Source of the DNA: Sandaracinobacteroides hominis
GTDB taxonomy: Bacteria; Pseudomonadota; Alphaproteobacteria; Sphingomonadales; Sphingomonadaceae
Assembly (NCBI RefSeq): GCF_016464365.1
Contig: NZ_JADCUC010000001.1
Location: 372,001 to 436,000, forward strand
Length of the DNA: 64,000 bases
Reading direction: 5' to 3'
Shown here: in pieces, positions 13,735 to 15,704 of the stretch
Layout: each line of letters starts with the position of its first letter
Numbering within the stretch: position 1 is the stretch's first letter
Notes under the pieces: generated by a model
What the model saw: the letters and a program-made list of their open reading frames with translations, nothing else
What the model was told of the DNA's origin: nothing
Database searches by the model: none
Position numbers and translations under genes: made by a program

Positions 13735-13812
13735 GGCGACCGTAGCTCAATTGGTTAGAGCGCCGGTTTGTGGTACCGGAGGTTGCGGGTTCGAGACCCG
13801 TCGGTCGCCCCA
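13735..13812 (+). tRNA. tRNA-His (GTG)
   Basis: A complete cloverleaf: acceptor GCGACCG/CGGTCGC, D arm from GCTC, anticodon stem CCGGT/ACCGG with loop TTGTGGT (anticodon GTG), T arm GCGGG-TTCGAGA-CCCGT. The extra G at -1 (13735) faces C73, the identity mark of tRNA-His, and CCA is encoded at 13810-13812. Confidence 0.97.
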
Positions 13813-13866: not shown

Positions 13867-14025
13867 TTGAAAAGCGAACAGGGCTATGGAGTGCTGCTGC
13901 TGCCGGGCCTTTTGGGCGGGCTGGCGGTCGGCATTGCCGTGGGGCAGCCTTCGGCGGGCACGGTGATCGGGCTGGGGCTGGGGGCGCTGGCGGCCCTGTT
14001 GTTGCGCCTGCGCGGGAAGCGCTGA
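13867..14025 (+). CDS. small two-helix membrane protein
   Basis: A 52-residue hydrophobic protein, LKSEQGYGVLLLPGLLGGLA followed by VGIAVGQPSAGTVIGLGLG and ALAALLLRLRGKR. Two glycine-rich membrane helices are separated by a polar turn, with a basic C-terminus. The start is a TTG with AGGTGG seven bases upstream; no ATG or GTG is available in frame after the tRNA-His gene. I do not recognise a family. Its last codons and stop are duplicated immediately downstream. Confidence 0.55.
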   Translation: MKSEQGYGVLLLPGLLGGLAVGIAVGQPSAGTVIGLGLGALAALLLRLRGKR

Positions 14026-14057: not shown

Positions 14058-14771
14058 TCAGGGTAGAGCCCGCGAGATCCAGACGACGCGGCCGATTATT
14101 TTCACGCCGGCGGGATCGCAATCCGGAAAGGATGGCCAGGCAGCATTGTCTGCAAGGATGGCGATGCGCCGGGTCACCGGATGCACCGACAGGCGGCGGA
14201 TGTTGAGGCTGGGGCCGGATTCTATCGCGTAGATGCCGTCGCGGGCCGAGACGCAATCGTGGGTGTCGACCAGGATCAGGTCTCCGGCGAAGAGCGTGGG
14301 CGACATCGAATCGCCCTCTACCTGCAGCGCGGAGAGGCCGGGGATTACCGATAGTTCGAGCTGGCGGACGAACCGCGCATCGAGATCGAGTGGACGGACC
14401 GCCGGATCGCGGGAATCGACAAAGCCGACCCGGAGCAGCGGCTGGCGCGCTGAATCGGGCGATACGCTGACGCTGGCGTGCGGAGGGCCGCCGAGCCTTG
14501 CTTCGCTGACGCCGAAATGCGCGGAGAGAATGCGCCGGTCGGTTTCCGACAGGCGGCGGGGGATGCCGCGCTTGATGAACTGCTGGATGTAGGCCGGGTT
14601 GCGGCCGAGCAGGCGCGATACCTCTGCATAGCCGGTGCCGGAGCGCTGGATCAGCAGATCGAGAAGCTGCTGGACCGATTCCCCGGAGCTTTCGCGCTGG
14701 GGTTCCTGCCCGTGTTCCATTTGGGGTTCCACGGTGGCGGCGCCGACGCTGTGGAGGGTTGGTTCAGACAT
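14058..14771 (-). CDS. S24/LexA-fold repressor-like protein, catalytic Lys replaced
   Basis: A 237-residue protein with an N-terminal lambda-repressor-like HTH region (YAEVSRLLGRNPAYIQQFIK, about 48-67) and a C-terminal S24 peptidase fold. The nucleophile Ser is present (S155 in VEGDSMSPTL), followed by AGDLILVDT. In LexA the general base is the Lys of V-K-R-L; the matching place here reads I-R-R-L, so it is Arg192. No Ala-Gly cleavage site is obvious in the linker. It may therefore be a stable repressor rather than one that cleaves itself after DNA damage. It faces a small HTH gene across a phased operator. Confidence 0.8.
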   Translation of the reverse strand: MSEPTLHSVGAATVEPQMEHGQEPQRESSGESVQQLLDLLIQRSGTGYAEVSRLLGRNPAYIQQFIKRGIPRRLSETDRRILSAHFGVSEARLGGPPHASVSVSPDSARQPLLRVGFVDSRDPAVRPLDLDARFVRQLELSVIPGLSALQVEGDSMSPTLFAGDLILVDTHDCVSARDGIYAIESGPSLNIRRLSVHPVTRRIAILADNAAWPSFPDCDPAGVKIIGRVVWISRALP

Positions 14772-14810
14772 TATGAGAGGAGCCCCTGCTTCCGTTTACC
14801 TTCTTTATCA

Positions 14811-14836
14811 TAGGAATTAGCCTAGACTAGTAGGAA
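14811..14836. promoter_or_regulatory. phased half-site array between two regulator genes
   Basis: TAGG at 14811, CCTA at 14821 and TAGG at 14831 are alternating inverted half-sites exactly 10 bases apart; the outer two extend to TAGGAA (14811-14816 and 14831-14836). It lies 40 bases upstream of the S24-type repressor start and overlaps its likely promoter (TATGAT on the minus strand at 14806-14811). The geometry fits cooperative binding of dimers on one face of the helix. Confidence 0.5.
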
Positions 14837-14940
14837 ACCAACCATCAGGTTCAATTTGGTCGATTCGGAAGGCGCGGAGTGGGCGCCGCCGGTTTTTCCG
14901 GACGGATCGACCATGGGTCGACATGTGGAGTGTTGCGATC

Positions 14941-15165
14941 ATGTCCCTATTGTATGCCATTGAGACCTGCCTGAGACTGACAAATATCCCGCCGTCGCGC
15001 TTTGGCCGGGAAAGTGTGCGCGACCCGCGGCTGGTTCACGACATGCGTCGGGGCCGCGAGCCGGGGCGCAAGGTGGAACAGCGCGTGCGGCTTCATATCG
15101 ATACGGTGATGAGCCAGTTGCCGGAACGTGGCGGCCAGCGCGCTTCCCGACGGAATTCATTCTGA
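14941..15165 (+). CDS. small HTH DNA-binding protein
   Basis: A 74-residue protein. MSLLYAIETCLRLTNIPPS, RFGRESVRDPRLVHDMRRGR and EPGRKVEQRVRLHI make a compact helix-turn-helix of the kind often seen in sphingomonads as a short stand-alone protein (pattern: P-S/T-R-F-G-R ... D-P-R-L-V ... G-R-E-P). The C-terminal 15 residues are basic and probably disordered. It is divergent from the S24-type repressor and shares its control region, and its stop overlaps the start of the next gene (TGATG). A Cro-like or antagonist role is inference. An upstream ATG at 14923 would add six residues. Confidence 0.6.
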   Translation: MSLLYAIETCLRLTNIPPSRFGRESVRDPRLVHDMRRGREPGRKVEQRVRLHIDTVMSQLPERGGQRASRRNSF

Positions 15166-15542
15166 TGCGGGCGGGGCTTACGGATCCGCACATCCGGCTG
15201 CTGCGGAGGATGCGCGAATGGATCTCGACCGACCCGTGGTTTGTCGACTGGCGGGATCGCGGCGGCAAGCCTTCGCTGGCGATCGAGAGCTTTGACAGTG
15301 CGCCCTGGGCCAGCCTGACCTTCAGTGGCATGCGGCATGTGCTGGATGTGCGGCTGGACGGCGCCGGGACGGACGTGGAGCAGGCGCTGGCGCAGCTACG
15401 CGAACAGCTGCCGGAAACCGATCTGGGGATCGCTGGCCATTTTCTGGCAGAGATACAGGTTGTCGAAACTGCACTGGAAATTGGCGAGGATGGGCGCACG
15501 TCGCTGTGCCTCCGTGTGGAGGCACTGACCATAGAGGAATAG
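15165..15542 (+). CDS. hypothetical protein coupled to small HTH gene
   Basis: A 125-residue soluble protein, MRAGLTDPHIRLLRRMREWI, STDPWFVDWRDRGGKPSLAI, then short beta-like segments (WASLTFSGMRHVLDVRLDGA, HFLAEIQVVETALEI, TSLCLRVEALTIEE). No signal peptide or membrane helix. I do not recognise the family. The start overlaps the previous stop by one base (TGATG), so it is translated together with the small HTH protein and is likely to work with it. The alternating strands could form a small beta sheet; no catalytic motif is visible. Confidence 0.6.
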   Translation: MRAGLTDPHIRLLRRMREWISTDPWFVDWRDRGGKPSLAIESFDSAPWASLTFSGMRHVLDVRLDGAGTDVEQALAQLREQLPETDLGIAGHFLAEIQVVETALEIGEDGRTSLCLRVEALTIEE

Positions 15543-15704
15543 GAATTTAACGCAAGTGCTGCCGATAGGCGTAGGAATAATCATTTGATGCGTTCCTGCA
15601 AATCGAGTGGTGCTCAAATTATGTTGTGCGAGCGTTCCGAACTGGGCTAGCAATTGAGTCGCGCGCAAATTGGGCGTGAACGAGATTCTGGTCAGGGCAA
15701 GGGA

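Follow-up and report, generated by a model that had tools for sequence, protein, structure and literature searches.

According to our analysis, the locus between a CI-like repressor gene and a small divergent gene of Sandaracinobacteroides hominis is on balance a domesticated phage-type CI/Cro switch with local repressor action over a tail-terminator-like gene, a reading that we hold with moderate confidence. The window, i.e., the whole stretch of DNA that was analysed, is 64,000 nucleotides long. In the mechanism that we propose, a phage-type CI/Cro switch would have been domesticated and become part of the sphingomonad chromosome. Dimers of the S24 (CI-like) protein most likely bind TAGG-N6-CCTA half-sites spaced one helical turn apart, and their site would overlie the -35 element of the promoter driving the small gene and ORF3, an operon that S24 would thus repress. 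The small Cro-like protein most likely binds to these half-sites too and acts against the repressor, and the output of the switch would be ORF3, a tail-terminator-like protein encoded away from any virion gene cluster. The features concerned are the following.

13736-13812: tRNA-His
14058-14771, minus strand: S24-type (CI-like) repressor, 237 aa, with Ser155 kept and Arg192 in place of Lys
14811-14834, no strand: half-site array, presumed operator, three half-sites in 10-bp steps
14821-14837, plus strand: conserved core CCTAGACTAGTAGGAAA, a 17-mer
14823-14851, plus strand: candidate promoter of the small gene and ORF3, with -35 TAGACT (14823-14828), a 17-bp spacer and -10 CAGGTT (14846-14851)
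14862-14866, no strand: GANTC site, a motif enriched in the relatives' regions
14941-15165, plus strand: small Cro-like protein, 74 aa, predicted four-helix HTH
15165-15542, plus strand: ORF3, 125 aa, tail-terminator-like predicted fold, its start overlapping the stop of the small gene

The preliminary description had recognized two divergent regulators, and both were borne out, the one on the minus strand as an S24 protein by its matches to PF00717 in Pfam (E 1.1e-10) and to the PHROG family "transcriptional repressor" (E 1.2e-20), the opposite one as an HTH protein by structure prediction. The S24 protein also matched the ECH_1013 regulator of NCBIfam (E 1.8e-15), far below the cut-off of that family, while a sequence search of the PDB returned no match at E up to 1. 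Among named phage records it had 87 matches, none of which covered 80% of the protein, and among plasmids 9 records were matched, 4 of them with 80% coverage. The catalytic Ser-Lys pair of self-cleaving S24 repressors (LexA/CI) is incomplete in the window, where S155 is accompanied by R192; in the alignment of homologues, which comprises 104 of 108 rows after 4 too-short rows were left out, Lys is kept in 97/104 and Ser in 101/104. Since Lys has been replaced by Arg in this lineage and no LexA-type box occurs in the intergenic region of the window, the switch probably stays off here or responds to something besides self-cleavage. As for the small gene, whose start is most likely the ATG at 14941 (the list of open reading frames begins it at 14923), the predicted structure of its product has four helices, and its resemblance to small HTH regulators is weak. 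In structure comparisons the best Foldseek E was 0.79 and VIA Z values reached 6.3 only, and no PHROG or Pfam family was matched at E up to 1.

Between the two genes, TAGG (14811-14814), CCTA (14821-14824) and TAGG (14831-14834) start 10 bp apart, as had been described. They are the only TAGG or CCTA words within 14772-14940, where 0.32 would be expected at the rate of the window. A 10-bp-phased triple in any orientation has this single instance in the 64-kb window, and TAGG-N6-CCTA-N6-TAGG has one copy in the 3.53-Mb genome (reversed-pattern control, 0). The core site, too, is a single copy in its own genome when up to 2 mismatches are allowed, so its action looks local. The search for a wider regulon led nowhere: allowing up to 3 mismatches, the core gave 2 matches in the own genome versus 7 for the reversed control, and TAGGAWWNNNCCTA with 1 mismatch gave 26 versus 78, which is uninformative. 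Of 59 relatives, 15 contain the 17-mer when up to 2 mismatches are allowed; G013 has two such sites, and G098 has one but no S24 match. 434 repressor and Cro bind operators with 4-bp half-sites and a 6-bp spacer. The array resembles these operators in half-site length and spacer and differs from them in its letters and in having three overlapping half-sites.

Whether the array is conserved where the gene pair is conserved was a check that had been proposed and that we carried out. We fetched 141 loci, found both genes in 135, in all of which the S24/small pair is divergent, and obtained 108 distinct intergenic regions after removal of 26 duplicates and L117. CCTAGACTAGTAGG was detected with up to 2 mismatches in 71 of the 108 regions versus 0 of 540 mononucleotide shuffles, the core being lost beyond this limit in the other 37. 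The phased triple in either orientation was found in 48 regions (shuffles, 0.000 per 108) and the phased pair in 88 (shuffles, 0.35 per 108), and of 297 spacings between neighbouring half-sites, 164 are exactly 10 bp and 22 are 20 bp. By these sequence comparisons, the phased array is a conserved footprint. In a profile of 101 regions (7 that had 6 or 7 mismatches were left out), TAGG stands at -10 and the core at 0, and an A at +26 is conserved in isolation (92/101). Because of this A, we placed the candidate promoter at 14823-14851: the A would be position 2 of the -10 element and TAGAC(A/T) the -35 element, while a scan of 14700-15000 found no consensus sigma-70 promoter. Two further motifs are enriched. 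GANTC, the CcrM site, occurs in 99 of 108 regions versus 39.7 in shuffles and is commonest 10-45 bp upstream of the small gene. LexA-type boxes, taken in the GAAC/GTTC-N7 form, occur as GAAC-N7-GAAC in 45 regions versus 0.1 in shuffles and as GTTC-N7-GTTC in 3 versus 0.06; PMC6473078 names GTTC and GAAC motifs.

Kinship with phages was assessed on eight virus contigs that carry S24 and small genes but no exact core. The pair is divergent in all eight, TAGG-N6-CCTA lies between the genes in six, and half-sites exceed shuffles in all eight (uncorrected P <0.0005 to 0.038); in L417, L421 and L431 the TAGG-N6-CCTA is flanked by a -35-like hexamer and a -10-like one. Ten proteins from the six contigs other than L395 and L407 matched primosomal, replication-initiation, primase, methyltransferase, integrase and tape-measure families, one having no match, and the two S24 proteins searched matched PHROG transcriptional and CI-like repressors. 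L412, situated at the end of its contig, is possibly a host locus that was inserted. An S24 tree including virus and other-family rows had unsettled bootstraps and long branches and did not indicate a direction. The CI/Cro-like layout that had been suggested is supported, and so are the conservation of the phased array and the use of one half-site code by homologous divergent pairs of virus contigs. The locus is like the CI/Cro immunity region of a temperate phage in its divergent S24 and small, predicted HTH genes with phased sites between them; unlike such a region, it is chromosomal across the family, its catalytic Lys is replaced in this lineage, and its next gene is tail-terminator-like rather than a replication gene.

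This next gene, ORF3, is predicted to carry a tail-terminator fold. Its model (pLDDT 90.3) has as its top structural match the RcGTA tail terminator 6tba (Z 12.7 over 120 residues), followed by the monocin cap (Z 11.8), the pyocin collar (10.5) and lambda gpU (9.5), and also PilO (Z 8.1) and a collagenase domain (Z 7.6). The ORF3 of the window scores 13.4 bits against PF11367 (tail completion; cut-off 24.5) and has no PHROG match. Homologues at the ORF3 position beside S24, which were paired with S24 by reading two search outputs together, exceed the Pfam cut-off for PF11367 in 13 genomes (best E 6e-26), and two of them also match the PHROG "tail terminator". Within a family of 38 ORF3 sequences, W48, S50 and G55 are kept and F53 and H58 nearly so. 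Searches of virus contigs with single ORF3 proteins yielded 1 locus in one search and none in the other. ORF3 is like the known tail terminators (PF11367, PHROG 176, RcGTA 6tba) in its predicted fold but unlike them in adjoining a repressor outside any tail cluster. TAGGAATTT and TAGGAATAA, which resemble single half-sites, recur directly 3' of ORF3, at 15541-15580 of the window.

The fold of ORF3 and the Pfam and PHROG matches of its homologues contradict the earlier statement that no phage structural gene is nearby; the accompanying statement on integration genes stood, since family searches of nine further neighbours (alcohol dehydrogenase, DUF808, RNase H, phosphotransferase, LytB, an HlyD/AcrB pair, a PEP-CTERM protein and valyl-tRNA synthetase) revealed neither an integrase nor any other phage gene. 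Phage lytic genes under the switch were not encountered either, the nine neighbours belonging to housekeeping and transport families and ORF3 alone being phage-like. A small hydrophobic ORF without a Pfam match (13867-14025) lies between tRNA-His and S24, and several relatives have weak homologues of it next to S24.

Wide occurrence of the pair in chromosomes of the family is also supported, with an S24 homologue in 117 and a small-protein homologue in 83 of 148 genomes; ORF3 was found in 69 by single-sequence search. An S24 tree of 104 rows, rooted at its midpoint, follows the taxa by eye. Of 20 loci taken from the order's other families, 8 have ORF3 divergent to S24, with no small gene detected in these; the small gene was found in 1 of the 20, and TAGG-N6-CCTA was seen by eye in 5. 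This S24-ORF3 divergence, together with the TAGG-N6-CCTA site, ties repressor, site and ORF3 to one another. Judging from these sequences, it looks as if S24 was first paired with ORF3 and the small gene joined them later.

Alternative readings of the locus were weighed against this background. The half-sites might serve another regulator or be mainly promoter sequence, the small protein being no repressor; this would fit with the -35-like TAGAC(A/T) held by the core, with the enrichment of LexA-type boxes and GANTC in the same regions and with the lack of a family match for the small protein, but it leaves unexplained the 10-bp phasing of inverted half-sites (164/297 spacings) and the occurrence of the same code in virus-contig pairs, and we deem it very unlikely. 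That the locus is left over from a prophage recently present at tRNA-His is more improbable still. tRNA genes are common attachment sites and one lies at 13736-13812, but tRNA-His was found in 9 of 35 loci scanned, all in the close clade, and the spread of S24, the small gene and ORF3 over 117, 83 and 69 of 148 genomes speaks against a recent prophage remnant. A regulator from a conjugative element that settled in the chromosome deserves mention because 25 S24 rows form a clade (support 100/97) that is labelled as lacking ORF3 and has a LexA-type box in 24/25; the three of its loci that were searched (L075, L103 and L098) lie beside genes for TrwC relaxase and/or TrwB coupling protein. SetR-type regulators act in conjugative elements, and this clade, with its relaxase genes and LexA-type boxes, resembles that type. 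The window, instead, has no LexA-type box and no conjugation family among the nine neighbours of its pair, and the 25-row clade is nested among ORF3-bearing rows, if only under a midpoint root. We therefore regard a conjugative origin as a slim prospect.

A RogA-like chromosomal regulator is a different proposal, according to which S24 would mainly repress a gene transfer agent (GTA) or its activators elsewhere, the divergent pair serving autoregulation only. RogA of Caulobacter crescentus, as described in PMC9632790, combines an HTH with an S24 domain in which key catalytic residues are missing, and it represses the GTA activators (gafYZ). The S24 protein of the window is like RogA in this domain composition and in its presumed link to a domesticated phage, and differs from it in that RogA is a repressor of gafYZ and that a divergent Cro-like partner goes unmentioned in the passages of PMC9632790 that deal with RogA, the comparison being one of descriptions rather than of sequences. 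GTA_TIM (PF13547) had to be abandoned as a GTA marker in this order, as 0 of 148 genomes exceeded the cut-off, and an 804-aa GTA tail protein was used instead, its full form being counted as absent when the best E was above 1e-80. The genus mates harbor a GTA-like cluster that includes a tail-completion gene of its own, and they have the 804-aa protein whole, and the small gene is somewhat commoner where this protein is present (56/58 family genomes versus 26/31 without it; Fisher P 0.047). The own genome, instead, holds only a 109-aa match (G000 contig C16, 59573-59899), and PF11367 was found there at ORF3 alone, the GTA having been sought through the 804-aa protein, PF11367 and GTA_TIM. Without the full protein, S24 is kept in 27/31 genomes, the small gene in the 26/31 given above, and ORF3 single-sequence matches show no association (39/58 with versus 22/31 without). 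The locus does not depend on the presence of a GTA, and a role as a GTA accessory alone is an incomplete account, since most family genomes without the full protein keep the locus. As the core site is, moreover, unique in the own genome at up to 2 mismatches, we consider the RogA-like proposal unlikely.

The preferred reading remains that of a domesticated CI/Cro switch acting locally on ORF3. If it is right, a lysogeny-type switch has been retained by the host for its own use, with a site conserved enough to be tested in many species, and it becomes directly testable what such a CI/Cro circuit does after phage loss and why a lone tail-terminator gene is kept under it; a clade of transposable phages would also have a preferred target that needs explanation. 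More speculatively, and as a rather doubtful extension, the host may hold one structural phage protein in reserve under this switch, ORF3 could mis-time the tail capping of incoming phages or GTAs, and Mu-like phages would seem to answer by inserting into the operon. Literature searches found no paper on this locus, most subscription journals lying outside their reach.

Mu-like prophages (Portal_Mu with Acb1, gp27 and F) were observed in relatives at L375, L376, L377, L378, L387, L389, L416, L489 and L493. The insertions lie at several positions from the 3' end of the small gene to the first ~50 bp of ORF3, and their junctions look like TGT..GCGSGCCA; a pattern search found no element ends in L490-L495. 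The idea that virus contigs with an exact core bear phage-borne switches was rejected, since L375 equals L135 and L411 is 99.4% L127, which makes them host loci with an inserted prophage, and the remaining exact-core virus contigs resemble L375 and L411 at their junctions. S24 with the small gene, on the one hand, and ORF3, on the other, lie at opposite ends of one contig (L416 and L493). Locus genes are present on 6/6 contigs whose portal shares 73% identity or more with the query, among them the query's own contig and a pair that look like one and the same insertion, versus 0/4 of the more distant contigs.
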